Below, piece by piece: positions 1-23,105 of a stretch of 26,864 nt of DNA; position 1 is the first letter of the stretch; each line of letters begins with the position of its first letter. This DNA comes from Ruminococcaceae bacterium AM07-15. GTDB lineage: Bacteria; Bacillota; Clostridia; Oscillospirales; Butyricicoccaceae. The notes under the pieces were generated by a model. It ran no database searches and was not told the origin of the DNA. It saw only the letters and a list, made by a program, of their open reading frames with translations. The DNA lies in assembly GCA_003477405.1 (NCBI GenBank), contig QUDE01000029.1:1-26864 (forward strand), given 5' to 3'. The position numbers were made by a program, and so were the translations under genes.

Positions 1-63
1 ACAGGTCTTACTCTCTTTTCCTCATCTGTAACACATCATTGACAAACCTACATCTCACGAAAG

Positions 64-97: not shown

Positions 98-141
98 CAT
101 CTTTCAAAACATCATTAAACGCAACACCGATTTCATACCTA

Positions 142-387
142 TCAATCCAACAATGTTTTCTCCGTCACAGCCTTTAGATATAGTTCCGGCTCACCATTCA
201 AAATCAGCTCAGCATAGGCCAATGGGTGGTTATAGATCAGCCAGTCCAGCTCCGACCGCTGGTACATACTATTTGCCACTTCGTTCTCCACGGCAGTACA
301 GTCGATGGAGAGCAGCGTCCCGTCCTCCATGTGCAGCTCCACGCAGGCAGTGTCCAGGTTGAACTCAACGGACAAAATCTTTCGCAT
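142..387 (-). CDS. Small conserved mobile-element protein (DUF6061-like)
   Basis: This is an 81-residue acidic protein with no signal peptide or membrane segment. From memory it resembles the DUF6061 family, small proteins of unknown function that travel with Clostridia mobile elements. The recognisable part is the run around residues 20-45, containing EDGTLLSIDCTAVENEVA and then MYQRSELDWLIYN. The ATG at 387 is preceded by a strong AGGAGG ribosome-binding site at good spacing. The gene lies downstream of the other minus-strand element genes, behind a gene-free, repeat-rich stretch, so it probably has its own promoter. No function can be assigned. The coding call is firm and the family name is a recollection. 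Confidence 0.75.
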   Translation of the reverse strand: MRKILSVEFNLDTACVELHMEDGTLLSIDCTAVENEVANSMYQRSELDWLIYNHPLAYAELILNGEPELYLKAVTEKTLLD

Positions 388-466
388 ACTCGTTACCTCC
401 TAATGCTTAAATTTCGATTGACTTTTCGCATCGTCACAAGCGCTGTTTTGTTTATTCACAACTGTA

Positions 467-531
467 GCAAGCAATGCGTGTGGATAGCCACACACAAGAC
501 TGGCAAGCAATGCGAGTGTTAATACACACTC
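467..531. repeat. Two iteron-plus-hairpin units, candidate oriT or replication-protein binding site
   Basis: The 12-mer GCAAGCAATGCG occurs at 467-478 and 503-514, 36 bases apart. Each copy runs directly into a different small hairpin: GTGTGG/CCACAC (478-483 and 488-493) and GAGTGT/ACACTC (514-519 and 526-531). The stem sequences differ while the hairpin shape and its offset are kept, which suggests a selected structure. A nick region, a replication-initiator site or paired RNA structures would all fit. Confidence 0.55.
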
Positions 532-740
532 ACATTTCCTGCCGTCTGCTTGTTGAGGGCAGCGCCCCCAAGCCCCTTTTGAACACAGAATTTCATTCTG
601 TGGCTGCGCGTTCTCCGAACGCTTTTTTGTCTGTGCCCAGTGCCCTGTTTCGGAGCATAGGGGTGCGTGAATCGCGCATCCCTTTTGTTGATATGAAACA
701 CCCTGAAACAGCGTTCTTCTTTTTCCCTCTGCCAGCAAAA

Positions 741-763
741 ACAGGAGCGTGGCACGCTCCTGT
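741..763. repeat. Perfect 23-base palindrome, likely protein-binding site
   Basis: ACAGGAGCGTG at 741-751 is the exact reverse complement of 753-763, with a single central base at 752. A hairpin with a one-base loop is unfavourable, so a dimeric DNA-binding protein site is more likely than an RNA structure. It lies in the gene-free stretch of the element, about 70 bases downstream of the small gene at 832. Confidence 0.5.
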
Positions 764-831
764 CCCTGCCGACAAGGAGAAAACTTTTGCGCTAATCTCA
801 TTGGTGAAATTAGTTTGAACGGAAACCTATC

Positions 832-1065
832 TTACCATCGGAAATCCGGGAATACCCCGCGCTTGTCCAGGTATTCCTGCCGGGCCTGCTCCCGTTCTTC
901 TGCGGTGGGTGCGGTCTTATATTTTGCATACAGCTCATGCCGCACCAGTGCATCTAATTTCTGTTCCAAACCTTGGCGAATTTCCTCGGCGTAGTCATCA
1001 TCGTAGGCCAGATGATACTCCACTAAAGCCACAAAAAGGTCATAGGGGATTTGTACATTTTTCAT
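832..1065 (-). CDS. Small conserved element protein of unknown function
   Basis: This is a 77-residue charged protein that is probably helical (VQIPYDLFVALVEYHL, then an acidic patch and EEREQARQEYLDKRG). I recall close relatives in Clostridia mobile elements, sometimes misannotated in databases as 'complexin-2'; the vertebrate name carries no functional meaning. The start at 1065 is supported by an AAGGAAAG ribosome-binding site. The gene follows the AAA ATPase gene at 1159, separated by a large nested inverted repeat. No enzymatic motif, signal peptide or transmembrane segment is seen, and no function can be given. Confidence 0.7.
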   Translation of the reverse strand: MKNVQIPYDLFVALVEYHLAYDDDYAEEIRQGLEQKLDALVRHELYAKYKTAPTAEEREQARQEYLDKRGVFPDFRW

Positions 1066-1080
1066 GTTCTCTTTCCTTCC

Positions 1081-1153
1081 GCGACGGTTGCGACGATAGC
1101 GACGATGTTTTTGACGGTACCATTTTCACCGTCGCGACCGTCGCTATCGTCGC
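1081..1153. repeat. Inverted repeat whose arms are built from 9-base repeats
   Basis: The left arm has three tandem GCGACGNNN units (1081-1107). The right arm has the complementary CGTCGC units in reverse. A perfect 15-bp stem (1090-1104 with 1139-1153) forms around a 34-base loop. The repeat fills the gap between the stop of the AAA ATPase gene and the next start. It could attenuate or process the transcript, or be a binding site for an element protein. Confidence 0.6.
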
Positions 1154-1158
1154 GCTCC

Positions 1159-2349
1159 TTATTCTTCACTCACTTCATAGGCCGTCGATTTTACCAGCAT
1201 ATAGGTCAATTTCACCCGCCTCCCGGAATGTCTGGCCTTGTTTTCATAGCCCACATGGTACTCTTCCAGCAGCCTGCCGGACTTAACATTCAGGTACTTG
1301 GTAAGAGCGTTGGAGGCCATTCCCGTTTGGATGGCTTCAGCCAGTTCAGACGGAGAACCGACCCACTCCCGACACTCGGCGGAAACCAGCTTTGCCACCG
1401 CTTCCAGCACCGGGTCCGGCGGCTCTTTATACAGCTCGTTTTCCATGCGTTCCAGGTTCCAGATCTGAGTTTGAGGGTCTTTCTTCAAGTAGATGATCTG
1501 ATCCGGCTGATCCCGTCCCACCACCTTGATAGTAGCGTCCAGTTCCGTTCGTTTTTTCTTCTGCATCAGCAGCGAACCGTCCGCACAGCCCAGCAGCCCG
1601 GTGGTGCCGGAAATCGTCTCAAAGGAATCGTCTGCCTGCTGCTTCCGGGTGTGGTGGACTGTCAGTACACAAATGCCGTGGTGATCGGCAAACTGTTTGA
1701 TCCTGCCGATGATTTCGTAGTCACTGGCGTAGCTGTATGCTTCACCGCCAACCTCCCGGATCTTTTGCATGGTGTCAATGATAATGAGTTTGGTGTCCGG
1801 GTATTCCTGCATGAAGTTTTCCAGCTGTTCGCCCGGTCCGTTCCCGATTTTTCCGGCCGTGGTGGCAAAGTGGAGATTGGGAGTGTCATTCACGCCATAC
1901 ATCATAAACATCCGGCTCTGGATGCGCTGAAAATCATCTTCCAGCGCGAGGTAGAGCACTGTTCCCTGGTGGACCTTGTAGCCCCACAAGTCCTGCCCGG
2001 TACTGACATGGTAGGCAATCTGGGCCACCAGAAAGGACTTGCCGATCTTGGGCGCTCCGGCAAGGATATATGCCCCTGCGTAAAGCAGTCCTTCCGCCAC
2101 TGGCGGCCTGCTCATATAAGCGGTCTGGAACAGCTCCGTCATGGTGAGCGTATGCAGGTATCGAGGGTCTACCATACGCTGCATCCTGCGGTACACTTCT
2201 TCCAGGCTCTCCGGGGAATTTACAATTTCATCGTTGATTTCTTCCCCGGAAGTGGGTATACTATTTTCAGTTGTTTGAGAGATTGACTGCCCATCATCTG
2301 CGCCAACAGATGAGCCCTGGGCGGTCATTTTCTTTTTTTCATCGATCAT
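1159..2349 (-). CDS. RepA-like AAA/RecA-fold ATPase
   Basis: This 396-residue protein resembles the RepA/DnaB-type hexameric ATPases of small plasmids and mobile elements, which unwind DNA or help load replication proteins. It has a Walker A motif GAPKIGKS (about residues 98-105), a LALEDD segment (about 134-139), a Walker B strand ending IIID (about 189-192) and a TVHHTRK sensor-like motif. The N-terminal 60 residues are polar and probably disordered. The C-terminal 100 residues may be a small winged-helix or binding domain. ATG 2349 has an AGGAGG site nine bases upstream and overlaps the end of the preceding gene by 11 bases, so the two are probably translationally coupled. The likely role is replication or maintenance of the excised element, by inference. 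Confidence 0.85.
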   Translation of the reverse strand: MIDEKKKMTAQGSSVGADDGQSISQTTENSIPTSGEEINDEIVNSPESLEEVYRRMQRMVDPRYLHTLTMTELFQTAYMSRPPVAEGLLYAGAYILAGAPKIGKSFLVAQIAYHVSTGQDLWGYKVHQGTVLYLALEDDFQRIQSRMFMMYGVNDTPNLHFATTAGKIGNGPGEQLENFMQEYPDTKLIIIDTMQKIREVGGEAYSYASDYEIIGRIKQFADHHGICVLTVHHTRKQQADDSFETISGTTGLLGCADGSLLMQKKKRTELDATIKVVGRDQPDQIIYLKKDPQTQIWNLERMENELYKEPPDPVLEAVAKLVSAECREWVGSPSELAEAIQTGMASNALTKYLNVKSGRLLEEYHVGYENKARHSGRRVKLTYMLVKSTAYEVSEE

Positions 2350-2674
2350 AGGCGAAATCCTCCTGCATTCCGTTCATAATGGTGGTGATCATACGGATGG
2401 TGTCCAGCAGCTCGTCGTTCACGCCCTGCCCGGCTTCAATCCGGTGCAGTTCGTCCAGCACGGCGGCCAGCTGATCCCGCAGGGCCTTGTAGACCCTGGG
2501 GTTGCCCTGGACTACCACATCCCGTTCCAGCAACCGCCGGATGATATAATCCTGCTTGGTCAGTCCGGTGAGTTTCACCAGGGCTTCCAGATGGAGATCT
2601 TCCTCCGCCGACACTCGGAAAGCCACCGTCTTATTTCTCCAGCGGTTATGGTTGTCATAGTTCTTCTTGGACAT
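2339..2674 (-). CDS. Ribbon-helix-helix-like protein, possibly MobC-type mobilization accessory factor
   Basis: The 111-residue product has a basic N-terminus, then VAFRVSAEEDLHLEALVKLTGL followed by KQDYIIRRLLERDV. This is the strand-helix-helix pattern of ribbon-helix-helix DNA-binding proteins such as MobC. The C-terminal half is helical. I chose ATG 2674 because AAGGAG lies upstream of it. A start at 2695 is possible but would overlap the integrase gene and has a poorer site. The ribosome-binding site falls inside the integrase 3' end, so expression is tied to the integrase transcript. The role could be relaxosome accessory protein or element regulator; without a relaxase in view this stays open. 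Confidence 0.7.
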   Translation of the reverse strand: MSKKNYDNHNRWRNKTVAFRVSAEEDLHLEALVKLTGLTKQDYIIRRLLERDVVVQGNPRVYKALRDQLAAVLDELHRIEAGQGVNDELLDTIRMITTIMNGMQEDFAYDR

Positions 2675-2678
2675 TTTC

Positions 2679-3761
2679 TTACACTCCTTTCTCATTCTTT
2701 AGTGAATCCAGCTTGTCGGCCATTTCCACCTGGCGGGTGGGAAACAGATGGGCATAGCGGTAGGTGATGTCTATACTCTCATGCCCCACACGCTCCGCGA
2801 TGGCCAGAGCGGTAAAGCCCATGTCGATCAACAAACTGATGTGGCTATGTCTCAAATCGTGTATGCGAATCCTTTTCACCCCTGTTTGCTTGCAGCCACG
2901 GTCCATTTCCCGGTGAAGATAGCTTTTGCTGATGGGAAACATCCGGCTGTCTGGCTCCACGCCGTAGAGCTGCTTGAGGTAGTCCTGCAACTCGTCACAC
3001 AGAAACTGGGGCATCTGGATCACCCGGTTGCTCTTGGGCGTTTTGGGCGTGGTAATAACATCCTGCTTGTTGAGCCGCTGGTACGACTTGTTGATGGTGA
3101 GAGTACGCTTTTCAAAGTCGAAGTCCGCCGGGGTCAGGGCCAGCAGCTCGCCTTCCCGAATACCGCACCAGTAAAGCACCTCAAAGGCGTAGAAGGACAG
3201 CGGCTTATCCATCATAGCCTCGGAAAACTTGGTGTACTCCTCCCGGGTCCAGAACAGCATCTCCTTTCGTTCTTCCGCCCCCATGTTGCCCGCCTGCCGG
3301 GCCGGGTTGATATTCAGGCCGTAAAATCGGGCAGCGTGGTTGAAAATGGCGCTAAGTTGATTGTGAACCGTCTTAAGGTAGGTTTTGGACAGAGGTTTGC
3401 CGTGGCAGTCCCGCATTTCCCGGATCTCGTTCTGCCAGCGCATGATGTCCTTGGCCGTGATTTCTGACAGCTTCCGCTTGGCAAAATAGGGCAGGATCTT
3501 CTTTTTGATGATGCTCTCCTTGGTGAGCCAGGTGTTGAGCTTCAACTTGGGCTTAATGTCCCTCTCATAGAGAGCAACGAAGCTCTCGAAGGTCATGTTT
3601 ACATCGGCCTGCTTCTCCATCAGGAACTCCCGTTCCCATTCCAGCGCCTCTCGCTTGGTGGCAAAGCCCCTTTTGAGCTTCTGCTGACGCTCTCCCTTCC
3701 AGTCGGTGTAGCGGAACTGCACATACCAGGTGCCGTTGTCCTTGTTCTTGAACGCTGCCAT
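2679..3761 (-). CDS. int: Tyrosine recombinase (integrase) of the element
   Basis: This 360-residue integrase catalyses site-specific integration and excision. It has an N-terminal arm-binding domain (about residues 1-55, GTWYVQFRYTDWKGERQQK), a SAM-like core-binding domain (about 57-155) and a catalytic domain (about 165-350). The catalytic residues are visible: Arg202 in GIREGE, His301 and Arg304 in HDLRH, His327 in VGHES, and the nucleophile Tyr336 in TYRYAHL. The length is normal for the Tn916/phage-like family. A GGGGGAG site precedes ATG 3761, two bases after the excisionase stop, so the two genes form one unit. Its position near the guaA 3' end fits that gene being its target. Confidence 0.95.
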   Translation of the reverse strand: MAAFKNKDNGTWYVQFRYTDWKGERQQKLKRGFATKREALEWEREFLMEKQADVNMTFESFVALYERDIKPKLKLNTWLTKESIIKKKILPYFAKRKLSEITAKDIMRWQNEIREMRDCHGKPLSKTYLKTVHNQLSAIFNHAARFYGLNINPARQAGNMGAEERKEMLFWTREEYTKFSEAMMDKPLSFYAFEVLYWCGIREGELLALTPADFDFEKRTLTINKSYQRLNKQDVITTPKTPKSNRVIQMPQFLCDELQDYLKQLYGVEPDSRMFPISKSYLHREMDRGCKQTGVKRIRIHDLRHSHISLLIDMGFTALAIAERVGHESIDITYRYAHLFPTRQVEMADKLDSLKNEKGV

Positions 3762-3763
3762 AA

Positions 3764-3967
3764 TTACTCCCCCTTTCTCGCCGTCTCGGTTCTCGTGCCA
3801 TAAAACTTCTCGTGGAAGAACTTGCGGTCAATCCGGCCAGAGATAGTGATACAGCCGGTTTTCGCCAGTTCCTCGTTCATCTGCCGGATGAGCTTGTAGG
3901 CGTAGGGGACGGATACCCCCAGCTCCTCGGCTACTTCATTGACGCGCATAAAAATCTGGTTTGCCAT
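3764..3967 (-). CDS. xis: Excisionase-type winged-helix DNA-binding protein
   Basis: The 67-residue protein starts IFMRVNEVAEELGVSVPYAYKLIRQMNEEL, the helix-turn-helix of MerR/excisionase-like proteins, followed by a short wing (GCITISGRIDRKFF). Such proteins bend the attachment site and steer the integrase towards excision, and they may also regulate their own promoter. ATG 3967 was chosen because GGAAGG lies eight bases upstream; an in-frame ATG at 4012 lacks a comparable site. The gene directly precedes the integrase with two bases between stop and start. It is probably transcribed from the promoter at 4134-4162 and controlled by the divergent XRE regulator. Confidence 0.88.
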   Translation of the reverse strand: MANQIFMRVNEVAEELGVSVPYAYKLIRQMNEELAKTGCITISGRIDRKFFHEKFYGTRTETARKGE

Positions 3968-4026
3968 GATAAATACCTTCCTTTCCTTGTTGTTGGTGAC
4001 TGTGGCCTGCAAGTGTTGTGTTTCAT
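3931..4026 (-). CDS. Possible 31-codon leader peptide upstream of and overlapping xis
   Basis: An ATG at 4026 preceded by a strong AAGGAGG (five-base spacing) opens a 31-codon frame rich in basic residues (MKHNTCRPQSPTTRKGR). It ends at a TAG inside xis, in another frame. Its ribosome-binding site is stronger than that of xis, so translation of this leader would pass over the xis start. It could be a regulatory leader, a remnant, or chance. There is no homology evidence. Confidence 0.3.
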   Translation of the reverse strand: MKHNTCRPQSPTTRKGRYLSWQTRFLCASMK

Positions 4027-4108
4027 AAATGCCTCCTTACTTATGTCCGCCACTTTTTTTCAGTTTCGCAACCAAAAATCTGGCGGGCCATTTGATGCGC
4101 TATATTAT

Positions 4109-4221
4109 CTAAGCTTATCCGCTTAGTATTCTCATAATACTATACATATAAGCTTAGTTCAAGCCTTTTGAAAGAAATATTGTTAAATAAATTTGCTTAG
4201 ATTATCTTGACAAAGCTAAGC
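4109..4221. promoter_or_regulatory. Operator array of CTAAGC/GCTTAG half-sites between divergent promoters
   Basis: Five copies of the hexamer lie in an AT-rich gap: CTAAGC at 4109-4114 and 4216-4221, GCTTAG at 4121-4126, 4152-4157 and 4195-4200. The last pair extends to TTGCTTAG/CTAAGCAA around the -35 box of the regulator promoter. Two copies form TAAGCTTA palindromes (4110-4117 and 4149-4156). The layout fits binding by the XRE regulator encoded at 4271, as in phage-type switches. Confidence 0.65.
4134..4162 (-). promoter_or_regulatory. Predicted promoter of the xis-int operon
   Basis: On the minus strand TTGAAC (4157-4162) and TATTAT (4134-4139) are separated by 17 bases. Operator hexamers overlap the spacer and lie just downstream, so the promoter is likely repressed by the divergent regulator. 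Confidence 0.5.
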
Positions 4222-4235
4222 AAATATGCTATGTT
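4207..4235 (+). promoter_or_regulatory. Predicted promoter of the XRE regulator gene
   Basis: A perfect TTGACA (4207-4212) is followed after 17 bases by TATGTT (4230-4235). The -35 box sits between the two halves of the TTGCTTAG/CTAAGCAA inverted repeat, which suggests autorepression. Confidence 0.6.
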
Positions 4236-4270
4236 TCTTATAACAACAACCATAGATGGGAGCTGGATGT

Positions 4271-4759
4271 ATGGCGATTGGCGAACGGATTCACTTTTTC
4301 CGTCTCCTACGGGGGATGACACAGAAATATCTCGGTATGGCGCTGGGCTTCCCGGAGAAGTCCGCTGATGTGCGCCTGGCACAGTACGAAACAGGATCAA
4401 GAACCCCTAAGGCGGACCTTACCGCTGCCCTGGCCCAGGTACTGGATGTCTCGCCCCATGCCCTTTTTGTCCCGGACATAGACTCCTATGTGGGGCTCAT
4501 GCACACTTTGTTTACTCTGGAGGATAACTACGGTTTGAAGATCACGGAGCAGGACGGTGAGCTTGCCTTGCAGGTAGATTTCCGCAAAAACAAGGATGCT
4601 GCCCGGCTGCACGAAATGCTTTGGGCCTGGCGGGAACAGGCGGCCAAACTGGAGGCCGGTGAGATCTCCCAGGAGGAGTACGACCGCTGGCGTTACTACT
4701 ACCCGGAGTACGACAGCAACCAGATCCACGCCAAGGTACCTCCGGAAGGTCTGATCTGA
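4271..4759 (+). CDS. XRE-family helix-turn-helix regulator of the element
   Basis: The 162-residue protein begins with an XRE helix-turn-helix (about residues 3-62: GERIHFFRLLRGMTQKYLG, then RLAQYETGSRTPKADLT and a hydrophobic last helix). The C-terminal half is acidic and contains Trp/Tyr-rich helices (LHEMLWAWREQAAKL, EYDRWRYYYPEY), perhaps for oligomerisation or inducer sensing. ATG 4271 was chosen over an in-frame ATG at 4256 because GGGAG lies eight bases upstream. It is the only plus-strand gene of the element in view and is divergent from xis-int. The likely role is repressor of excision and of its own promoter. No peptidase motif that would indicate self-cleavage was seen. Confidence 0.85.
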   Translation: MAIGERIHFFRLLRGMTQKYLGMALGFPEKSADVRLAQYETGSRTPKADLTAALAQVLDVSPHALFVPDIDSYVGLMHTLFTLEDNYGLKITEQDGELALQVDFRKNKDAARLHEMLWAWREQAAKLEAGEISQEEYDRWRYYYPEYDSNQIHAKVPPEGLI

Positions 4760-4827
4760 ACCTCTCACTTGTAGGCCACGGGAGAGACCGTTTGTCGCAC
4801 AAATTCAGATAAATGAGAGCAAAATAA

Positions 4828-4867
4828 AAAAGGTCTAACTGATTAGCAAAAATCAGTTAGACCTTTT
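4828..4867. terminator. Strong bidirectional terminator
   Basis: A perfect 16-bp inverted repeat (4828-4843 and 4852-4867) has an 8-base loop and A/T tracts at both ends, so it can end transcription in either direction. It closes the XRE gene on the plus strand and stops read-through from the guaA-like gene into the element on the minus strand. Confidence 0.9.
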
Positions 4868-5055
4868 ACTTATGAATAAAAAGATGAGGATTTTTAGGCT
4901 ACTCGCAAGCCACCCGATTTTTCTTTTCAAACTCGATAAATCGGGATTTGACGAGTGCTATCAATCTGCTATCAAATGGGAATTTGAAAAATCAAAAAGT
5001 CAGTATTTTCAAGGGTTTACGGGCCCTCATATCCACTTTTTGCTTATTCCCACTC
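4868..5055. other. Element end with integrase-type repeats, and inferred attachment core at the guaA end
   Basis: This gap has no gene. It contains an 8-bp inverted repeat (CCCGATTT at 4913-4920, AAATCGGG at 4938-4945) and a direct repeat TGCTATCAA (4956-4964 and 4967-4975) with 11-base period, the kind of helical-phase repeat bound by integrase arm domains. The attachment core is inferred to be the last bases of the guaA-like gene (GAGTGGGAATAA on the minus strand, 5044-5055). Without the other element end the crossover cannot be fixed. Confidence 0.45.
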
Positions 5056-6024
5056 GATAGTGCCGGTGGGCTTGGGAGTCAGGTCATAGCAGACCCGGTT
5101 GACGCCCTTGACTTCGTTTACGATCCGGTTGGTGATGTGCTGCAAAAGGGCAAAAGGCACATCCTCCACAGTGGCGGTCATGGCGTCCTTGGTGTTGACG
5201 GCCCGGATGATCACCGGCCATTCATCGGCACGCTTATTGTCCCGCACACCCACGCTCTTGAAATCGGGGATCAGGGTGAAATACTGCCAGACCTTGCCCT
5301 CCAGGCCGTTTTTGGCAAACTCTTCCCGCAGAATGGCGTCCGACTCCCGCACCGCTTCCAGACGGTCCCGGGTGATGGCGCCCAGGCATCTCACGCCCAG
5401 ACCAGGGCCGGGGAACGGCTGACGGTAGACCATGCCGGCCGGCAGGCCCAGAGCATCGCCCACAACCCGCACTTCGTCCTTATACAAAAGGCGCAGAGGC
5501 TCCACCAGCTCAAACTGCAGATCCTCCGGCAGGCCGCCCACATTGTGATGGGCCTTCACCGGGCCGCTTTCCAGAATATCGGGATAGATGGTGCCCTGGG
5601 CCAGGAACCGGATGCCTTCCTGCTTGCGGGCTTCTTCCTCAAACACACGGATGAACTCGGCGCCGATGATCTTCCGCTTCTGCTCCGGCTCGGCCACTCC
5701 CTGGAGCTTATCCAGGAAACGATCCACTGCATCCACATAGATCAGGTTGGCCTTCATCTGGTTGCGGAACACTTCCACCACCTGCTCCGGCTCTCCTTTG
5801 CGCAGAAGGCCATGGTTCACATGCACGCACACCAGCTGCTGGCCAATGGCCCGGATGAGCAGCGCTGCCACCACCGAGGAATCCACACCGCCGGACAGGG
5901 CCAGAAGCACCTTCTTGTCCCCTACCTGGTTCTGGATCTCCTTCACCTGCTCCTGGATAAACTGTTCCGCCAGGGCCGCTGTGGTAATGCGTTCCATATT
6001 CTCCGGGCGTTTGTTGTTGTCCAT
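5044..6024 (-). CDS. GMP synthetase ATP-pyrophosphatase subunit-like protein without glutaminase domain
   Basis: The 326-residue protein matches only the C-terminal part of GMP synthetase, which adenylates XMP and replaces the adenylate with an amino group. The PP-loop SGGVDSS (residues 44-50), the [10 protein letters not shown] and [12 protein letters not shown] motifs and the dimerisation domain to GTIEWE are intact. The N-terminal class-I glutaminase domain is absent, not decayed: the gene has its own AGGAGG site and a near-perfect promoter. It could use free ammonia or a partner glutaminase, as in archaeal two-subunit enzymes; no such partner is adjacent. A full-length guaA lies at 12391-13929. 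The mobile element is inserted at this gene's 3' end, apparently leaving the C-terminus intact. Confidence 0.88.
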   Translation of the reverse strand: MDNNKRPENMERITTAALAEQFIQEQVKEIQNQVGDKKVLLALSGGVDSSVVAALLIRAIGQQLVCVHVNHGLLRKGEPEQVVEVFRNQMKANLIYVDAVDRFLDKLQGVAEPEQKRKIIGAEFIRVFEEEARKQEGIRFLAQGTIYPDILESGPVKAHHNVGGLPEDLQFELVEPLRLLYKDEVRVVGDALGLPAGMVYRQPFPGPGLGVRCLGAITRDRLEAVRESDAILREEFAKNGLEGKVWQYFTLIPDFKSVGVRDNKRADEWPVIIRAVNTKDAMTATVEDVPFALLQHITNRIVNEVKGVNRVCYDLTPKPTGTIEWE

Positions 6025-6184: not shown

Positions 6185-8659
6185 TCAGTTGCCGCTGGGC
6201 GGAGTGATGGAAACGGTGCTTTCCTCCATGACATACTCCGAATCGGCGGCCACACGGGAAAGGCCGGAGACATGGACAATGCAGCCGGTCTCCCCTGCCA
6301 CCTGGGCGCAGGCGGTTTCCAGCACATCGCGGTAGTTGTTTTCGGTCTTAAAATGGGTGGCCAGTTTCAGCTGGGTCTCCCCACGCTGGATGGCATCCCG
6401 GATCTGCTGGGTGTAATAGGCCAGGGCTTCCTCCTGTGTCATATTGCCCTGGGCGGGATACTCGATGCGGGCCGTGGTGACCCGGGTGTTGGCATTGATT
6501 TTGGGTGCATACAGCACATAGTCCACTTTGGAAATGAGGCCGCCCACGGTGTAGCCCTCCACCGCCACCTGACGGACGGCCTTGGAGGCATAGTAGCTTT
6601 TTTCTTTGTCGGGATAATTCCCCGGCTGCAGCTCCACACGCTGACGGCCATTGCGGATGGCCTCCTCGATCTGATCGATGTAGCGCTGGGTCTCATTCCG
6701 GCCCCACTTGTAGTTGGTGATGGCAACGATGCCCCCTGTTTTGGCGGTGACATTGTAATCCGAAGTGGTGCTGGATGCTGCATAGGTGTAGCCGCTGAAG
6801 GTATAGCCCGGGGTCTTCATGTTCTTGCAGGCCAGCTGGATGGCCCCATCGGTGTAACCGGTGAGGGTGATCTGATAGGTTTCGCAGGTGCCGCTTACAA
6901 TGGCCTGCTCCAGGAGCTTCTGAACCTCCGGGGCGTTGGCGGCATCCTGGGCCTCCTGCTGATCCTTCTCCTCTTCCTTGATATCCTGGCGGCGCTTCTT
7001 TTCGGTCGCAATATCCGAGCGGAAAAATTCAAAGTGCTTCTCACTGGAGCGGAAGGAGCCATAGGCAAACTGGGGATGCTGGGCCACGATGGTGTTGATC
7101 ACTTCACGGCTGTATTTGCTCAGGGTGTTGGAATCCCAGCCGGAGTCCGACAGGTCGATGATGAAATACAGCTCCTCATCCAGCTGCTGGTCGGAAAGGG
7201 CCTGGATCTCTGCCTGGGTCCAGGTGGGCACCTTCTCCAGGGCGGGAGCGCAAAGGGCCAGGATGGCGTTCACCTGCTTCTGGCGCTCGTCGGCCGTGGC
7301 CTGGTCCACAGAGTCCAGCAGGTCTTCATCGTATTTGGTGCTGGTGCAGGAGTGAAGAACTTCCCAGTTCCGGTGGCTCCGGTTGACCATCACCTTGTCG
7401 CTTTTGAGGAAATACTCATAGCGGATGTAGTCGCCGCCACGGGTGGTGGGATCGTCCCAGGTGGTGTCCACATGGTACCACTCCCCGTCCACCTGCACCA
7501 GGTTCCAGGCGTGATAGCCCCCGGCAAAGCCGGTGATGGTCTCGCAGGGGATGCCGGCGGCATCCAGCAGGATCTCGTAGGCCTTGGCATAACCGGAGCA
7601 CACGGCGGTTCCCTTGAGCAAGGCCCCTTCGGCCTGGTGGGAAATAAAGGGCATATTGCCAATGTCCACCCGGATGTCATAATCGCAATGGGTGATCAGG
7701 TAATCGTGGAGGGTCTTGACCACATCGTAATCGCTCATGTTGCTGGTGATCAGGTTGCCCACCACCCGCTGGGCCTCAGCCTGGGCGGCGGCAGACACAT
7801 AGCGCCAGTCGTTCTCCGCCACGGTGGCAGAGGACGCGGTGCTGCTGGTATAGGTCACCGACAGGTGCTTGGCAAGGTTTCCATCCTGCTCAAAGGCATG
7901 GATGCTTTTGATGCCATAGGGGTTCTTGCCGTCCAGATCGGCAATCTTCCGGGCCAGCTGCTCGGCCTGGGAAGCCTCCAGATTGAACGGACTGATGTCA
8001 ATGGTGGCTTTCCGGTCCAGGAAACCGGTGGTGATGGTCAGAGTGGCTCCGGCTTCATCGCTGAGAACGGGCTGCTCCTCTGTTTCCCCGTTGTCTCCCA
8101 GCTGCTGGAACAGGCAATAGACCACATCCCGGCGGGGACAGCCTGCCTTGGCTGAGAAGCTCAGGCCATCGGTCAGGCCGGTTTCTTTTGCCCAGCTGAG
8201 AGCGGAAGCCGACCAGTTGCTTCCCAGGGCATCTTCCCCGGCAAAGCGGCACAGGAAGGCCAGAATCTCATCGTAGGCCAGGGTGCCGTAGGGGTCGAAC
8301 CGGCCGCCGCCCACGCCGTTGGTGATCCCCTTCTCCAGGGCCCACAGGACGGGCTTATAGTAATAGGCGTTTTTGTCGGTCACATCGCTGAAGGTGGAAA
8401 CCCCGGCGGGAGCCGGAGACCCGGCGGCCCGCCACAGGAAGGTGACGGCCTCTGCACGGGTGACGGTGCTCTCCGGTGAAAAAGCGCCGTTTCCGGTGCC
8501 CAGGGTGATCCCCTCTTCCGATGCCCATGCGACGGCGTCGGCATAGTAGGCGCCCTCCGGCACATCGTGGAAGCCGGTATTGGCGGCCGCCACCGGCAGG
8601 ATGCCCGCTGTCAGCACCAGGGCCAGCAGCAGGGCAAAAATCTGTTTGATCTTCTTCAT
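6185..8659 (-). CDS. Secreted SLH protein with transglutaminase-like domain and C-terminal repeats
   Basis: The 824-residue protein has a signal peptide (about 1-26), three SLH-type segments (about 28-188), a linker, a transglutaminase-like domain and a repeated C-terminal region. The catalytic triad is visible as Cys354 (TAVCSGYA), His383 (GGYHAWN) and Asp398 (YHVDTTWDD). Bacterial members act as cysteine proteases or cross-linking enzymes, so the reaction cannot be named. Residues 545-575 are highly charged and may form a helical stalk. Three degenerate repeats of about 75-80 residues follow (about 578-650, 655-735, 745-820). SLH domains usually bind cell-wall polymers, so the protein is probably wall-attached. 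ATG 8659 has AGGAGG upstream. It lies 130 bases after the membrane sigma-factor gene and may be cotranscribed with it. Confidence 0.88.
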   Translation of the reverse strand: MKKIKQIFALLLALVLTAGILPVAAANTGFHDVPEGAYYADAVAWASEEGITLGTGNGAFSPESTVTRAEAVTFLWRAAGSPAPAGVSTFSDVTDKNAYYYKPVLWALEKGITNGVGGGRFDPYGTLAYDEILAFLCRFAGEDALGSNWSASALSWAKETGLTDGLSFSAKAGCPRRDVVYCLFQQLGDNGETEEQPVLSDEAGATLTITTGFLDRKATIDISPFNLEASQAEQLARKIADLDGKNPYGIKSIHAFEQDGNLAKHLSVTYTSSTASSATVAENDWRYVSAAAQAEAQRVVGNLITSNMSDYDVVKTLHDYLITHCDYDIRVDIGNMPFISHQAEGALLKGTAVCSGYAKAYEILLDAAGIPCETITGFAGGYHAWNLVQVDGEWYHVDTTWDDPTTRGGDYIRYEYFLKSDKVMVNRSHRNWEVLHSCTSTKYDEDLLDSVDQATADERQKQVNAILALCAPALEKVPTWTQAEIQALSDQQLDEELYFIIDLSDSGWDSNTLSKYSREVINTIVAQHPQFAYGSFRSSEKHFEFFRSDIATEKKRRQDIKEEEKDQQEAQDAANAPEVQKLLEQAIVSGTCETYQITLTGYTDGAIQLACKNMKTPGYTFSGYTYAASSTTSDYNVTAKTGGIVAITNYKWGRNETQRYIDQIEEAIRNGRQRVELQPGNYPDKEKSYYASKAVRQVAVEGYTVGGLISKVDYVLYAPKINANTRVTTARIEYPAQGNMTQEEALAYYTQQIRDAIQRGETQLKLATHFKTENNYRDVLETACAQVAGETGCIVHVSGLSRVAADSEYVMEESTVSITPPSGN

Positions 8660-8789: not shown

Positions 8790-10367
8790 TCAGGATGCGT
8801 GGTCGCTGATGCGGACGAACTCATAGTGGGCCGGGTCGTCTACTGCCAGATCCCATGGAATCTGGATTGTCCGGTTCAGATCCGGCGGATCGACGATATT
8901 CACTCCCAGGAGCACACCGTCATAGTCCTGGGGCACCCGGAGGGTATAGGTCACATCCTGCCAGGCGTCGATGGTGATCTCCCGGTTCAGGCCAGGCCGG
9001 CTGCTTTCCTGCCAGTCGCCGTAGTCCATGCCGCTCTGCCACACCTTCTCATAGGAGATGGAGAAGGTCTTTCCCTCGTGCTCCACCTGGGCCTCCCCTT
9101 TGGCCTGGACCTGTCCGCCACCATCTGACCGCTGATCGGGAAAATAAAGCTGGCCGATGTACCAGTCGTAAAGACTGTATTCCTGGGTGACGATGGTGAA
9201 GGCCAGGGAGGCATTACCTGCATTGCCCAGGAGGACCTGGGCGGTGTTGCTGTAGCGGATGGTATAGGTCACATACCCTTCCCCATCGGGCTCGCTCACC
9301 GTGATGGACGGCTGGCTCAGCCCGCCGGTGGAGGAAACGGTCTCCAGGGCCGCATCTCCGGTCTGGGTGGTCAACGGGATATCCTCATAGGCCCGGGGGT
9401 CTACCAGGGTGAAGCCATGGAGGGCGCCGAAAGAGGTGTCCTCCTGTTCCTCCTGTTTCGCCTGGGAGTTCTCTGGCGGAGTGGACGCCTCCTCCTTCTG
9501 GCCGAAACGGGAGAACAATTCCAGAGCTGCGCCGCCGATGACCACGGCCCCGGCCAATACGGCGGCCACCACCTTCACGGAGATGCCCGCAGCCGCCCCG
9601 GTTCCGGCAGAAACACCGGCGGCCGTTTCTGCTGCGGCGGCCGCTGTGCCCGAAGCGGCGTTTTTGGCCTGGGAGAGCACCTGGCTGGCCATGGCGGCAG
9701 AAGCGGCGCTGTCCAAAGCGGTGCTTTCCGCCTCCCGCCGCAGGAAATACAGCAGAAGCAGCACAGGGCTGAGGCCATAGAGCTTGACGCCCCGGCGTTC
9801 GTGCTCCTCCACCCCGGCCTTGATGGATTTTCTGGCATAGTTCAGCCGGCTTTTCACCGTGCCTTCGCTGGTGCCCATGGCCTGGGCAATCTCTTTTACG
9901 CTCATTTCATCGTAATAATAGAACAGCACGCACATCCGCTGTTCCGGGGGCAGGTTGTCCACCAGCTCCAGAATCATCCGGCTGGTTTCTTCGTTGTCCA
10001 GGGCCTGCTCCGGGATCAGCGTTTCGTCCAGGTTCGGGGCCTTGTCCAATAGCGAGACGCCTTCCTCATCCTCCGGGATCTGCCACTCCTTGTGGGGAGC
10101 GGAAAGCAGATGGCGGCAGCGGTTGGCCGTGATGCCGTTGACCCAGCCCCAGAAAGCGGCAGGCTCCCGCAGCTTGGAAAGGCTGCTCAGCATGACGATC
10201 AGCACATCCTGGGTGGCATCCTGGGCGTCCTCTTCTTTTTTCAGCATCTTTTTGCAGTGATAATACACTTTATTCTGCACCGCCTGCACCAGGGCTTCCT
10301 GGGCCTCTTCCTCCCCCTGGACGCTTCGGCGGATCAATTCCTCCAGCTTTTCCTCATCGATTTTCAT
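8790..10367 (-). CDS. ECF-type sigma factor fused to a transmembrane anchor and extracytoplasmic domain
   Basis: This 525-residue protein is much longer than ordinary ECF sigma factors. Residues 18-90 form sigma region 2 (AQDATQDVLIVMLSSLSKL, FWGWVNGITANRCRHLL). Residues 135-185 form region 4 (LPPEQRMCVLFYYYDEMS, then GTSEGTVKSRLNYARKSIK). A short hydrophobic patch (about 199-209) and an alanine-rich linker (211-262) lead to one clear membrane helix (about 263-284, VKVVAAVLAGAVVIGGAALE). A polar Glu/Gln stretch and a beta-rich domain of about 215 residues follow, predicted outside. I do not recognise that domain. The sigma part would be tethered at the membrane and might be freed by proteolysis or act in place; this is inference. 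No separate anti-sigma gene is adjacent. Surface-protein genes flank it on the same strand. Confidence 0.88.
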   Translation of the reverse strand: MKIDEEKLEELIRRSVQGEEEAQEALVQAVQNKVYYHCKKMLKKEEDAQDATQDVLIVMLSSLSKLREPAAFWGWVNGITANRCRHLLSAPHKEWQIPEDEEGVSLLDKAPNLDETLIPEQALDNEETSRMILELVDNLPPEQRMCVLFYYYDEMSVKEIAQAMGTSEGTVKSRLNYARKSIKAGVEEHERRGVKLYGLSPVLLLLYFLRREAESTALDSAASAAMASQVLSQAKNAASGTAAAAAETAAGVSAGTGAAAGISVKVVAAVLAGAVVIGGAALELFSRFGQKEEASTPPENSQAKQEEQEDTSFGALHGFTLVDPRAYEDIPLTTQTGDAALETVSSTGGLSQPSITVSEPDGEGYVTYTIRYSNTAQVLLGNAGNASLAFTIVTQEYSLYDWYIGQLYFPDQRSDGGGQVQAKGEAQVEHEGKTFSISYEKVWQSGMDYGDWQESSRPGLNREITIDAWQDVTYTLRVPQDYDGVLLGVNIVDPPDLNRTIQIPWDLAVDDPAHYEFVRISDHAS

Positions 10368-10496: not shown

Positions 10497-10538
10497 CCAT
10501 AGAACAGAAACCGGCCCACCTGTAAAGAGGTGGGCCGG
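10497..10538 (-). terminator. Hairpin terminator after the LRR-SLH gene
   Basis: A perfect 10-bp GC-rich stem (CCGGCCCACC 10511-10520, GGTGGGCCGG 10529-10538) lies 33 bases after the stop codon at 10572. On the minus strand it is followed by the moderately U-rich TTTCTGTTCT. It would separate the LRR gene from the sigma-factor gene. Confidence 0.65.
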
Positions 10539-10571
10539 CCTTCGGGCAAATCAAATCCGGTGGATATCCGA

Positions 10572-12032
10572 TCAGGCGGCGGCCCCCAGCTGCTTCCACA
10601 GGCAGTAAACCATGTCGGAGCGGGGGCAGCTGGCCTTGGGCGAAAAGTTCAGACCTTCGGTCAGACCGCTGGACTGGGCCCAATTCACTGCGGCGGCAGA
10701 CCAATCGGAACCGGAGGCCGTTTCTCCGGCCGCCCGGCACAGGAAGGCAAAAATCTGGTCATAGGACAGGGCGCTGGACAGACCGAAAACGCCGCCGCCC
10801 ATGCCATCGGTGATGCCCTTTTCGGCGGCCCACAGAACGGCATTGTAATAGTAGGCGTTTTTATCTGTCACATCGGAGAAGGGAGAAACAGAGGACGCAG
10901 GCGCCGGAGACCCGGCGGCCCGCCACAGGAAAGTGACCGCTTCGGCCCGGGTGACGGTGCTGGCGGGAGAGAAGGTGTTGTTGCCGGTGCCGGTGGTGAT
11001 CTTTTCATCCACGGCCCACTGCACGGCCTGGGCGAAATAATCACCGGTGTCCACATCGGTGAAGCCGGCCACCGGCTGGGCAAAGTGGATGGTGGCCCGG
11101 TCCAGGCCGTCGTTCAGACCGCCCATCTCGATCTGGCTCCACTGGAGGGCGGTGCCGCCATAGTACACATCGGTCAGGCTGTCACAGCCGTAAAAAGTAC
11201 CGCTGACAATTTGGGTGACGCTGTCGGGGATGGTCACTGTTTTCAGGTTGGTACAGAAGCGGAAGGCGTCGTTCATCAAAGTCACGCCGTCGGGAATGAC
11301 GCAGCTTTCCAGATTGATGCAGCCTTCAAACAGCCGCATGGGCAGAGTGGTGATGCCGGAGGGCAGACGCACGCTTGTGAGGCTTTGGCAGTTGCTGAGG
11401 GCCCACTCCCCCAGATAGGTGACGCTGTCCGGGATATACAGGCTTTGCAGTTTTTTGCAGTCGGCCAGAGAGGAGTTGGAGAGGGTGGTGACGCTATTGG
11501 GCAGGGTCAGGCTGGTGATGCCGGAGCCAGAGAAAGCGTCACGGCCGATGGTGGTGATCCCCTCCGGCAGAGTGACGCTGGTGAGAGAGGAGCAAGCGGC
11601 GAAGGTATCCCGGGGAATGGAGGTCAGGCTGCGGCTGAGGGTGACGCTTTTCAAGCCGGTGCAGTTAGAGAACACTCCTTGATCCAGGAGGGTGACACTG
11701 TCGGGCAGCACCACCTGCTCCAGAGAGCTGCAAGCGCCGAAGGCCTGCCGCCCGATATAGGTGACCGTATCGGGAATGGTAATGCTCTCCAGCTGCTTAT
11801 GCTGATTAAAGACATAATCCCCGATGGCGGTGACGGGCACACCGTAGATCTCAGCGGGGATATCGGCTTGGGTAATGGTTTCGTCGGCCCGGGTGATGGT
11901 ACCGGTGGCTGCGTCAAAATAGAGCTTGCCGCCTGTGACTTCATAGGTCAGTTCGGCCGCCTGGGTTGGCAGGAACAAAGTCAAAGCCAATCCAAGAGCT
12001 AAGACAAAGGGCAGGAGTTTGCGTACTTTCAT
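10572..12032 (-). CDS. Secreted BspA-like leucine-rich-repeat protein with C-terminal SLH domains
   Basis: The 486-residue protein has a signal peptide (about 1-25), then LRR_5/BspA-type repeats of about 23 residues (about 60-300, pattern LTSVTLPEGITTIGRDAF), then three SLH-type segments (about 322-486). LRR_5 proteins are surface-exposed binding proteins and adhesins in many gut bacteria, and the SLH part would hold it on the wall. The SLH part is very similar in protein and DNA to that of the transglutaminase-like protein at 6185-8659 (both contain STVTRAEAVTFLWRAAGSPA), but here it is C-terminal instead of N-terminal. ATG 12032 is preceded by AAGGAAG. The ligand is unknown. Confidence 0.9.
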   Translation of the reverse strand: MKVRKLLPFVLALGLALTLFLPTQAAELTYEVTGGKLYFDAATGTITRADETITQADIPAEIYGVPVTAIGDYVFNQHKQLESITIPDTVTYIGRQAFGACSSLEQVVLPDSVTLLDQGVFSNCTGLKSVTLSRSLTSIPRDTFAACSSLTSVTLPEGITTIGRDAFSGSGITSLTLPNSVTTLSNSSLADCKKLQSLYIPDSVTYLGEWALSNCQSLTSVRLPSGITTLPMRLFEGCINLESCVIPDGVTLMNDAFRFCTNLKTVTIPDSVTQIVSGTFYGCDSLTDVYYGGTALQWSQIEMGGLNDGLDRATIHFAQPVAGFTDVDTGDYFAQAVQWAVDEKITTGTGNNTFSPASTVTRAEAVTFLWRAAGSPAPASSVSPFSDVTDKNAYYYNAVLWAAEKGITDGMGGGVFGLSSALSYDQIFAFLCRAAGETASGSDWSAAAVNWAQSSGLTEGLNFSPKASCPRSDMVYCLWKQLGAAA

Positions 12033-12337
12033 GGGATATCTTCCTTTCTGTTTTTTTGGTCCTATTGGATAGTGCCGGTTGGACGCCGGTTGGTTTTATA
12101 AAAAAGAAAAAATTTTTAGAAATTTATAAATACCGGAAACCAGCATCATCGGCTGGGCAAAAGAGCAGCTCCCTCTCCCCTGTTTGCCCCCTTCCCTGCC
12201 GAAAGAGTATGGCCCGTTTTCAGCGGGGCCCGTGACTGTTCTTTGGCATGACGGCCCGGTCATGACCGGACTGTCTGGAAATGGTAACCTGGAAATAGTA
12301 TATCACAGACGGATTTCTATTGTACCAGGTACTTGCA
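12033..12337 (-). promoter_or_regulatory. Long, hairpin-rich leader of the LRR-SLH gene with possible promoter
   Basis: There is no gene in these 305 bases. A candidate extended -10 (TGATATACT on the minus strand) lies at 12297-12305, but no good -35 box accompanies it. It would give a leader of about 260 bases. Within the leader, successive minus-strand hairpins are visible: a GGTCATGACC palindrome, a GGCCC/GGGCC stem, a GGGCAAA/TTTGCCC stem and a CCAGC/GCTGG stem, followed by an AT-rich stretch and the ribosome-binding site. No known riboswitch consensus fits as a whole. Confidence 0.35.
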
Positions 12338-12390: not shown

Positions 12391-13929
12391 TTATTCCCAT
12401 TCCACCGTTGCGGGGGGTTTGCTGGTGATGTCGTAGACGATGCGGTTGATATGGGGCACTTCGTTGACGATGCGGTTGGAGACCTTCTCCAGCACATCAT
12501 AGGGGATGCGGGCCCAGTCGGCGGTCATAAAGTCCGAGGTGACCACTCCTCTCAGGGCCAGGGTATAATCATAGGTGCGCTCGTCGCCCATGACGCCCAC
12601 CGACCGCATATCGGTCAGAACGGCAAAATACTGGTTGATGTCCCGGTCCAGCTTGGCATTTGCGATCTCCTCCCGGAAGATGGCATCGGCCTCCCGCAAA
12701 ATGGCCAGCTTGTCCGCTGTGATCTCGCCGATAACCCGCACGGCCAGACCCGGTCCCGGGAAGGGCTGACGCCATACCAGCTCTTCCGGCAAGCCCAGCT
12801 CCAGACCCAAAGCACGCACTTCGTCTTTGAACAAAAGCCGCAGCGGCTCGATGATCTCCTTGAAGTCCACATGGTCGGGCAGACCGCCTACATTGTGATG
12901 GCTCTTGATGACGGCGCTTTTGCCCAGGCCGCTTTCCACCACATCGGGATAAATGGTGCCCTGGGCCAAAAAGTCCACGGCGCCGATCTTGCGGCTCTCT
13001 TCCTCAAAGACCCGGATGAATTCCTCGCCGATGATCTTCCGCTTCTGCTCCGGATCAGTGACGCCCTCCAGCTTGCTGAGGAAACGATCCTGCACATTGG
13101 CCCGGATGATGTTCATATCGAACTTTTCACCCATGATCTTTTCCACCATGTCCCCTTCGTCCTTGCGGAGAAGACCATGGTCCACAAACACGCAGGTGAG
13201 CTGATTGCCCACGGCCTGGCTGATCAGCGCGGCGGCCACCGAAGAGTCTACGCCGCCGGAAAGGGCCAGAAGCACCCGGCCATTGCCCACCTTCTGACGG
13301 ATTTCTTCAATGGCCTGCTTGGAATAGGCCGCCATGGTCCATTCGCTGGAAAGGCCGCAGATCTTATACAGGAAGTTCTCCAGAATCAAAGTCCCTTCCT
13401 CGGTGTGCATCACTTCGGGATGGAACTGGACGCCATAGAGCTTTCTCTCCGGGTTTTCGATGGCGGCGGTGGGGCAATCCTTGGTTTTGGCGCTGGTGAC
13501 AAAGCCCTCCGGCAGCTGATCCACCGAGATAGTATGGCTCATCCAGCACACCGACTGCTGGCGCACGCCCTCAAAAAGCAGGCTGCTGGAATTGTGCCAA
13601 AGCTCGGCTTTGCCATATTCCCGCACCTGGCCTGCCTTGCAGGTACCTCCCAGCATCAGGGTCATCAGCTGCTGGCCGTAGCAAATGCCCAGAACGGGCA
13701 CGCCCATCTCAAAAACGGCGGGATCGCATTTGGGCGCTCCCTCTTCATAGACGGTGGAAGGGCCGCCGGTGAAGATGATGCCCGAAGGGGCAAACTGACG
13801 GATCTCCTCCATCGTGGTGTTATAGGGTTTGATCTCGCAATAGACTCCCCTTTCCCGCACGCGGCGGGCGATGAGCAGATTATACTGCCCGCCGAAATCC
13901 AGGATCAAAACGCGGCTGCGTTCACTCAT
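12391..13929 (-). CDS. guaA: GMP synthase (glutamine-hydrolysing), full length
   Basis: This 512-residue enzyme makes GMP from XMP, glutamine and ATP in the last step of de novo guanine nucleotide synthesis. The N-terminal class-I glutaminase carries Cys83 (GICYGQQ), His170 and Glu172 (FHPEVMH). The PP-loop SGGVDSS is at 214-220, followed by the pyrophosphatase core and the dimerisation domain ending ATVEWE. The length is normal. ATG 13929 has AGGAGG upstream. The gene is monocistronic between a candidate promoter and a good terminator, and is divergent from the SLH gene at 14135. Its 3' end reads GAATGGGAATAA, one base different from the paralogue end that hosts the mobile element. Confidence 0.97.
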
Positions 13930-14134: not shown

Positions 14135-15457
14135 ATGGATAAACGCACATGGAAAATACGGTGCGCGGCCTTTTGCAGCAGTCTGGCTTTTTGCGCTCTT
14201 CTGCCTGCCGCTTTCGCTCTTTTGGAAAAGGAAGACCCCGCTCCGGCGGTGACCACCTTCTCCAAAGTGGAGGACGCCGGAAAAACCGTCACCTTCTCCC
14301 AGGAGGACTTCACCACCCGCCTGACAGGGGAAGACACCCTGGAGGGCATCGTGGTTTCGGCTTTGCCCGACACCGCCGCAGGCACCCTGCTCCTGGGCGG
14401 CCAGCCCCTTTCCCAGGGGGAAAGCGTCTCCCTGGAGGGACTTTCTACCCTCTCTTTTGAGCCAGCGGGAGAAAGCGACACCCAGGCCAGCTTCTCTTTT
14501 CTGCCGGTGTTTGCAGGCTATGGAGCCGGAGAAGAAAGCGTGCAGGTCAATATCAACCTGAGCGACACCCCCAACAGCGCCCCCATCGCCACTTCCCTTT
14601 CCTTTGAGACCTATGTGGACCTGCCCCTCACCGGACAGCTGGAGGCCAGCGATGCCGAAGGAGATGCTCTGTCCTTTGCCATCATGGAAAAACCCCAGAA
14701 AGGCACCGCGGAAGTGACCGAAAGCGGCGCATTCCGCTACACCCCCAAAGAGGGCAAAAGTTACGAAGAATCCTTCACTTATTATGTCACCGATGCCCAG
14801 GGAAACTCCTCCAACCCGGCCCAGGTGAAGGTAACCGTGAAAAAACAGGAGGAAAAAGAGACCATCCGCTACGCCGACCTGGAAGATGACCCGGCCCATT
14901 ACGCCGCCATCAAGCTCACCGAAGCAGGGGTGTTTTCCGGGGAGCAGATCGGGACGGATTATTTCCTGGACCCGGAGGAAACGGTGACCAGGGCCCAGTT
15001 CATCGCCATGACCATGGCGGCCAGCGACATTCCCCTGCCCTCCATGGCGGTGCCCAGCGGTCTGGCCGATGATGCCCAGACCCCGGATTGGGCCAAAGCC
15101 TCTTCAGCGGCGGCCCTGGCATCCGGCGTGGTGGAAGGCAGCCCCGACGGCAGCGGCAGTAAGGTGCTGCGTCCCAACGAACCCATCACCCGGGCCGAAG
15201 CGGTGGCCATTCTGGACCGGGCCCTGGATGTGCCCGCCGGGGTGAATTTGCCCATGGATCTGAAAGACGCCGCCCAGGTGCCCCAGTGGGCTGCTCAGGC
15301 GGTGCAGGATGCCTTGCAGGCCGGTATTTTGCAGACCACCGACGGGAATGTGCGCCCCAATGACAACCTGAAGCGTTCGGAAGCGGTGCAGATGGTCTAC
15401 AAGGCCATGGATCTTGGTGACGAGGAAGAAAAGAGCTTCTGGGACTTCCTCAGGTAA
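14135..15457 (+). CDS. Secreted SLH protein with cadherin-like domain
   Basis: The 440-residue protein has a signal peptide with a Cys-containing hydrophobic core (about 8-29). An unrecognised beta-rich region follows (about 36-142), then a cadherin/tandem-Ig-like domain (about 148-236; EASDAEGDALSF, GAFRYTPKEG and TYYVTDAQGN are its signature strands and calcium-type acidic motifs). Three SLH segments come last (about 244-298, 308-366 and 374-428; ITRAEAVAILDRAL is typical). It is likely an S-layer-associated or wall-bound structural or adhesive protein. ATG 14135 was chosen because GGAGG lies nine bases upstream; the reading frame is open further 5' but overlaps guaA without a site. It is divergent from guaA and ended by the terminator at 15649. 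Confidence 0.88.
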   Translation: MDKRTWKIRCAAFCSSLAFCALLPAAFALLEKEDPAPAVTTFSKVEDAGKTVTFSQEDFTTRLTGEDTLEGIVVSALPDTAAGTLLLGGQPLSQGESVSLEGLSTLSFEPAGESDTQASFSFLPVFAGYGAGEESVQVNINLSDTPNSAPIATSLSFETYVDLPLTGQLEASDAEGDALSFAIMEKPQKGTAEVTESGAFRYTPKEGKSYEESFTYYVTDAQGNSSNPAQVKVTVKKQEEKETIRYADLEDDPAHYAAIKLTEAGVFSGEQIGTDYFLDPEETVTRAQFIAMTMAASDIPLPSMAVPSGLADDAQTPDWAKASSAAALASGVVEGSPDGSGSKVLRPNEPITRAEAVAILDRALDVPAGVNLPMDLKDAAQVPQWAAQAVQDALQAGILQTTDGNVRPNDNLKRSEAVQMVYKAMDLGDEEEKSFWDFLR

Positions 15458-23044: not shown

Positions 23045-23105
23045 TTTTTCTTCGCTTCTGCTCTTGCGCGGCCTCACCACCTTTCCATTGTTCGGCCTTT
23101 GCCGC

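Follow-up and report, generated by a model that had tools for sequence, protein, structure and literature searches.

The window analysed here is a stretch of 26,864 nucleotides (nt) from Ruminococcaceae bacterium AM07-15 (contig QUDE01000029.1), and the gene under study (P0001; 8790..10367, minus strand) encodes a protein of 525 amino acids (aa) in which a sigma factor of the extracytoplasmic function (ECF) type is fused to a membrane helix and a large outer domain. On the same strand it is flanked by two genes for surface proteins identified by Pfam, one with transglutaminase and S-layer homology (SLH) domains (824 aa; 6185..8659) and one with BspA-type leucine-rich repeats (LRR_5) and SLH domains (486 aa; 10572..12032), the latter preceded by a promoter element and predicted to be a target of the sigma factor. 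The fused open reading frame (ORF) starts with ATG, has no internal stop codon and is supported by Pfam, NCBIfam and homologues. An earlier note, made from the letters alone, had described sigma factor, helix and outer domain in one frame, and Pfam, hydropathy and the AlphaFold2 (AF2) model confirmed this on the minus strand.

The sigma part contains region 2 at residues 26-88 (10104..10292; PF04542 Sigma70_r2, E 4.2e-9) and region 4 at residues 130-181 (9825..9980; PF08281 Sigma70_r4_2, E 4.7e-17), without region 3, which is the combination expected of an ECF factor. The protein also scores above the family cut-off of NCBIfam TIGR02937 (sigma70-ECF), and its predicted model superposes on solved ECF chains. 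Directly behind region 4 lies a conserved segment (residues 191-215; 9723..9797) with the signature GxKL(Y/H)xxxPxPFL. Its conservation reaches 2.49 bits per column at residues 191-200 and 1.75 at residues 201-215, next to 2.28 in sigma region 2 and 2.78 in region 4, and AF2 predicts a confident helix at residues 201-215. We consider this segment a candidate for a built-in inhibitory element. Pfam matched no zinc-finger anti-sigma family in the extension, and residues 191-258 contain no cysteine.

The segment is followed by a cytoplasmic linker (residues 216-258; 9594..9722), recognised by its sequence and composition, which the earlier note had called alanine-rich and which is rich in both alanine and glycine. 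In a module survey of 200 proteins (search homologues together with locus proteins, some of them duplicated), alanine and glycine made up on average 58 % of the linker, 13 % of the sigma part and 16 % of the outer part, and the median linker length was 58 residues. Hydropathy shows only one membrane helix, at about residues 259-283 (9519..9593), with conserved K265 and G278-G279; the conserved small residues are A268, A272, G278 and G279, and both VAA and GAA occur within the helix. Of the 200 proteins, 188 have a higher net charge on the N-terminal side of the helix than on the C-terminal side, 11 have equal charges and one shows the reverse; the sigma part is therefore predicted to lie inside the cell (N-in/C-out).

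The outer domain (residues 302-525; 8793..9464) had been described as beta-rich, which agrees with a mostly beta AF2 model of mean predicted local distance difference test score 93.2. Fold comparison returned middling matches to immunoglobulin-like (Ig-like) proteins that are compatible with other families too, so that the modelled domain looks like an Ig-like beta sandwich without being placed in a family. Pfam gave no match on it, DUF3298 included, and none was seen among the NCBIfam matches listed (25 of 80), in line with the earlier statement that it could not be assigned. Used as the sole query, the outer domain found three proteins of 169, 153 and 273 aa, with no clear free-standing relative in a search bounded by length and shared-word limits.

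Spread of the family and diversity of its outer domains

The protein search returned at least 1077 homologues at E ≤ 1e-3 among 7998 scored candidates, the closest among the matches listed having 97 % identity at 100 % coverage. Intestinimonas butyriciproducens An565 (locus L036) carries a full-length fused sigma gene 97 % identical to that of the window, in a collinear neighbourhood whose DNA identity of 92-97 % indicates that the two are different genomes. This copy in another isolate rules out a frameshift or misassembly joining two genes, the artefact against which the earlier note had asked for a check.

The scan for relatives used one genome per species and confirmed 166, of which the best 80 loci were retained; all of these 80 belong to Clostridia or Bacillota. 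When the sigma profile was applied to the ORFs of 115 loci, a membrane helix followed the sigma part in 88 of the 92 ORFs scoring at least 112.6 bits, and thus the fusion is present in relatives, a point that the earlier note had asked to check. The four ORFs without helix are accounted for by contig edges (L048, L051), an unread stretch (L062) and a short ORF before the full one (L046); none of the 26 ORFs at or below 92.7 bits has a helix. In an order-level sample of 295 genomes, matches running through the membrane helix in frames of at least 333 aa were found in at least 19, so the fused family is patchy within the order. The fused sigma protein is a member of a large clostridial family. 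Several genomes (G232, G261, G221, G184, G303 and others) contain frames of about 1050-1155 aa in which the match to the chassis extends no further than sigma region 4; these possibly represent a different fused-sigma family.

The comparison of outer parts covered 86 sequences, 85 from locus proteins and one from the window protein. They fell into 33 clusters by blastp, 21 of them with a single member, and since some clusters are single truncated pieces (e.g. L094 and L112), 33 is not usable as a count of domain families. Pfam identified LRR_5 in six outer parts, Big_2 in five, RCC1 in three and DUF5050 in two, while DUF3298, A2M, RHS, DUF2963 and others were seen once each. Many unrelated outer domains, among them the BspA-LRR, Ig-like, RCC1 and DUF3298 types, sit on one conserved chassis, consisting of the sigma part, the KLYxxxPxPFL segment, the Gly/Ala linker and the helix. 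In the window's clade the outer parts combine three modules as a mosaic, named A for the Ig-like domain, R for an RCC1 propeller and C for a further C-terminal domain; the 200 surveyed proteins comprised 71 with A, 16 with AC, 14 with CR, seven with R, five with C, one with AR and 86 with other outer parts.

On a FastTree phylogeny of 157 chassis sequences, the 42 outer-part labels need at least 60 changes (the minimum being 41), compared with 106-115 in 100 shuffles; for the 75 rows carrying the six architectures, the tree requires 19 changes or more, compared with 25-33 in shuffles. Two gene pairs show the same pattern at close range. At L109 the sigma parts of adjacent genes are 91.5 % identical and the outer parts dissimilar, and at L115 the sigma parts of two genes about 2 kb apart are 96 % identical, with outer parts that are dissimilar or at most weakly similar (E 0.026). 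A third pair, P0061 and P0101, has 99 % identical sigma parts and unrelated outer parts, but P0061 comes from one contig of 2.7 kb and could be a chimera; we therefore based the claim on the L109 and L115 pairs and the tree. Judged from these comparisons, the outer domains have been exchanged repeatedly over one conserved chassis.

Promoter element and neighbouring genes

Upstream of the sigma genes we recognised a shared block, AAAACC-N15-GGCACT, with the boxes often extended to ATAAAACC and GGCACTA. A box containing AAC with a second box 15 nt further on is the layout of ECF promoters. The window has one exact match to ATAAAACC-N15-GGCACTA (12070..12099, minus strand), whose AAAACC begins 65 nt before the start codon of the LRR-SLH gene; it is the only match in the window at up to three mismatches, with 0.38 expected in shuffles at the same looseness. 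In the window and in An565 an element belonging to the sigma gene itself can no longer be recognised, and a consensus scan found no standard sigma70 promoter directly before the window's sigma gene. Between the LRR-SLH gene and the sigma gene, the consensus scan alone points to a terminator-like hairpin (10508..10541, minus strand).

The element was followed in a subclade set of 16 loci (15 scoring at least 406 bits and the truncated L051), with L001 excluded here and in the neighbour counts as a copy of L036. At up to one mismatch these loci contain 31 sites, every one on the strand of the sigma gene, and in 11 of the 16 a site is found no more than 310 nt before the sigma start. Eight of the 11 other loci at or above 290 bits lack the element at this stringency; L050 and L062 each show a single distant site with one mismatch, and at L052 there are two exact ones. 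Over all 27 loci the true pattern gave 35 sites and the reversed pattern four. We also searched the exact core in 14 whole genomes carrying this sigma factor, of which 13 are distinct as G356 repeats G001. It occurs 29 times, in 12 of the 13, with a single site for the reversed pattern, and 24 of the 29 sites share a contig with the fused sigma gene.

Outside the subclade the element is rare in the sampled genomes. Twelve of the 86 other genomes of the family of G001 have one site each, and the reversed pattern gives 36. A 13-base form is present in seven of 294 other genomes of the order and, G001 aside, in none of the 18 order genomes counted with full chassis matches. It was not found in G054, the only other genome of the genus of G001, whose best sigma match ends before the helix. 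A longer pattern at up to two mismatches gave 72 sites (20 exact) in the 14 genomes versus 60 for its reverse; only close matches are meaningful, because this loosening adds about as many control sites.

The genes behind the sites encode the sigma factor itself, SLH proteins, zinc-ribbon membrane proteins, secreted-looking proteins, one lipoprotein-like protein and some unnamed ones. Examples of the element come from loci of the A, AC, R and CR architectures, and it therefore seems to be the sigma part, not the outer domain, that the output follows. At L038, L045 and L060 it is located about 35-65 nt past the sigma gene and 330-400 nt before the SLH start, which implies a long leader RNA.

Most relatives of the window's clade have SLH neighbours, another point that the earlier note had asked to check. 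An SLH-protein gene lies within two genes of the sigma gene in 21 of 27 loci at or above 290 bits, and contig ends truncate three of the remaining six; across all loci, SLH domains occur in 50 of 903 called genes. The neighbours were called by a codon-score caller trained on the window, which missed many sigma genes elsewhere, and they cover 63 of the 92 sigma ORFs, 29 being left out. No anti-sigma family was matched in the scanned flanking genes by Pfam or among the NCBIfam matches listed, which bears out the note's remark that no separate anti-sigma gene stands beside the sigma gene. The transglutaminase-SLH gene has no element of its own within the window, and the SLH gene matching it at L038 has one in front.

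A conserved micro-ORF, M(R)YITFFQFLRRCLLLDAE..., lies before the sigma gene, at roughly 50-140 nt from its start, and overlaps it at L060, L043, L040, L047, L041, L039, L046, L048, L049, L045, L051, L061, L062 and L037, and also at L038. Its phase relative to the sigma gene is identical in 14 of 14 loci, its differences fall on the three codon positions as 166/148/542, and single changes over all pairs are 384 synonymous and 107 non-synonymous; by this pattern the micro-ORF looks protein-coding. Its start codon is absent in L037, and it was not seen upstream of the gene in the window, L001 and L036. At L068 and L071-L074 a conserved gene of 108-111 aa, by eye resembling a helix-turn-helix regulator, directly precedes the fused sigma gene.

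Elsewhere the window contains two GMP synthase genes on the minus strand (5044-6024 and 12391-13929), one full and the second of 326 aa without the amidotransferase domain; L036 also has a short GMP synthase gene, beside its transglutaminase-SLH gene. Positions 1-5040, next to the second guaA, may be a mobilizable element with a tyrosine integrase (2679-3761), a NikA-like protein (2339-2695) and an AAA_25 protein (1159-2349), all on the minus strand, and the match to L036 reaches only as far as 5040. Beside guaA, positions 14222-15457 (plus strand, frame open from 13871) encode a third SLH protein, which has bacterial Ig/cadherin-like domains. An ordinary ECF sigma factor (19423-20001, minus strand) lies beside an AsnC-type regulator, and a glmS ribozyme (22897-23055, minus strand) in front of a glmS-like gene (21047-22873).

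Proposed mechanism and alternatives

We think it probable that the protein is a one-chain sigma/anti-sigma switch, in which an envelope cue leads to release, likely by proteolysis, and so turns on SLH surface genes. The ECF sigma part would be held in the cytoplasm, tethered to the membrane through the post-sigma4 segment and the Gly/Ala-rich linker, and the outer domain would serve as an exchangeable sensor on the far side of the membrane. In the resting state, the conformation predicted for the sigma part is the closed form known from sigma/anti-sigma complexes. A cue from the envelope or surface would act on the outer domain and cause release, for which regulated proteolysis within or close to the membrane helix is the most likely route; the freed sigma factor would then take RNA polymerase to ATAAAACC-N15-GGCACTA promoters before nearby SLH genes and, in most subclade relatives, to the promoter of its own gene. 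Computation supports the fusion, its topology, the conservation of the chassis, the exchange of outer domains, and the subclade-specific element with the genes behind it. The envelope-to-transcription reading of the earlier note thus gains from the conserved fusion, the sigma part predicted inside, the SLH neighbours and the promoter element linking them, while we infer the cue and its sensing, inhibition in the tethered state, cleavage, release and RNA polymerase binding.

A tethered sigma factor could also act without proteolysis, the outer domain shifting its orientation or oligomeric state so that RNA polymerase is recruited at the membrane. The membrane-bound activators ToxR and CadC work while tethered, and the window protein shares their topology of an N-terminal DNA-binding part inside, one helix and a C-terminal part outside. 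The small residues A268, A272, G278 and G279 could serve helix packing, and the linkers are long. Against this, no ECF factor is known to assemble its promoter complex at the membrane, and IutY, the membrane-fused ECF factor that was tested, works by proteolysis (PMC8999054). We regard action in the tethered state as unlikely.

We give a still smaller chance to the element being read by another regulator, such as another ECF factor or a response regulator, with the fused sigma gene merely one target. Its presence before the sigma gene as well as SLH genes would fit a common regulator, in the window the SLH gene alone has it, and L052 combines it with a sigma factor of another subclade. However, the distribution of the element goes with the sigma subclade (16 loci with 31 sites, and missing from eight of 11 others), its 13-base form is absent from the 18 order genomes other than G001 that were counted with full chassis matches, G054 has neither the element nor a best sigma match reaching the helix, and the two boxes of the element are spaced as in ECF promoters. 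A main role of the protein as surface protein or adhesin, with a sigma part that is vestigial or controls only its own dose, is highly improbable: the outer domains do resemble adhesin or structural modules (LRR, Big_2, RCC1), but the sigma part is the conserved portion while outer parts vary, and a subclade-specific promoter element exists.

Within the proposed one-chain switch, the linker may have a further role. Long Gly-Ala repeats are reported to hinder degradation by ClpXP and to lengthen dwell time, and are not slippery (PMC9531181); as the linker is rich in these residues, a protease stop that spares the sigma part is possible, if speculative. In its boldest form, which we hold to be rather doubtful, the whole cascade of regulated proteolysis would be contained in one chain, with KLYxxxPxPFL as a new minimal anti-sigma element and plug-in sensors exchanged in evolution on an almost unchanged sigma factor, many inputs thereby serving one promoter, and the linker would stop an AAA+ protease trimming the tail after intramembrane cleavage, leaving active sigma for the surface-layer genes.

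If the proposed switch is true, a single gene would link the exterior of a clostridial gut bacterium to a promoter, and the switch would predict how these Oscillospiraceae select the SLH surface proteins that they display. Sensor modules would be naturally interchangeable over one sigma factor and one promoter sequence, which would open the system to direct testing in B. subtilis and make it of use in sensor construction. Should the closed form prove real, the conserved post-sigma4 segment would be an anti-sigma element of very small size, with only about 25 residues.

Comparison with known systems

Membrane-fused ECF factors are already known in other phyla. We found no description of such a clostridial family in the literature searched, which did not extend to the main ECF classification of 2021, and likewise none of its exchangeable outer domains, conserved post-sigma4 segment or promoter element. 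ECF factors with C-terminal extensions are reported to be many and spread over classification groups (PMC8103513), and the group may therefore already be numbered.

ECF52 (SCO4117 of Streptomyces), ECF48 and ECF53 likewise join an ECF sigma factor to a C-terminal extension with one to two membrane helices, SCO4117 also has an outer part, and these groups are expected to be activated by proteolysis, according to PMC8999054. The window protein shares the C-terminal extension with a membrane helix. ECF48, ECF52 and ECF53 are actinobacterial and have a zinc-finger domain, whereas the window protein gave no match to a zinc-finger family and, in its own family, the outer domain is freely exchanged.

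Fused anti-sigma parts of the IutY type are FecR-like. In IutY itself (ECF243, Pseudomonas putida) the sigma factor and a membrane anti-sigma share one chain, as sigma and membrane part do in the window protein, and the sigma factor is freed by Prc and RseP (PMC8999054). Unlike the window protein, IutY belongs to siderophore cell-surface signalling in a Gram-negative bacterium; the anti-sigma type of cell-surface signalling had no Pfam match in the window protein, nor one among the NCBIfam matches listed (25 of 80).

SigI/RsgI of Clostridium thermocellum is also clostridial, and there too one cytoplasmic and membrane part bears many C-terminal sensors. RsgI has divergent C-terminal sensor domains and is processed by RseP and then ClpXP, which reads XAA sites in the RsgI helix (PMC12203970). 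SigI and RsgI are two proteins, RsgI having an autocleaving periplasmic domain, while the window system is a single chain, and no RsgI family was found in the window protein or its scanned neighbours by Pfam or among the NCBIfam matches listed. DUF3298, the domain of the lysozyme-binding anti-sigma RsiV, forms the outside part of relatives P0118 and P0120 and of one locus member, which recalls SigV/RsiV. RsiV is a separate anti-sigma protein, whereas the window protein, which has no DUF3298 match, carries its sigma, membrane and outer parts in a single chain.
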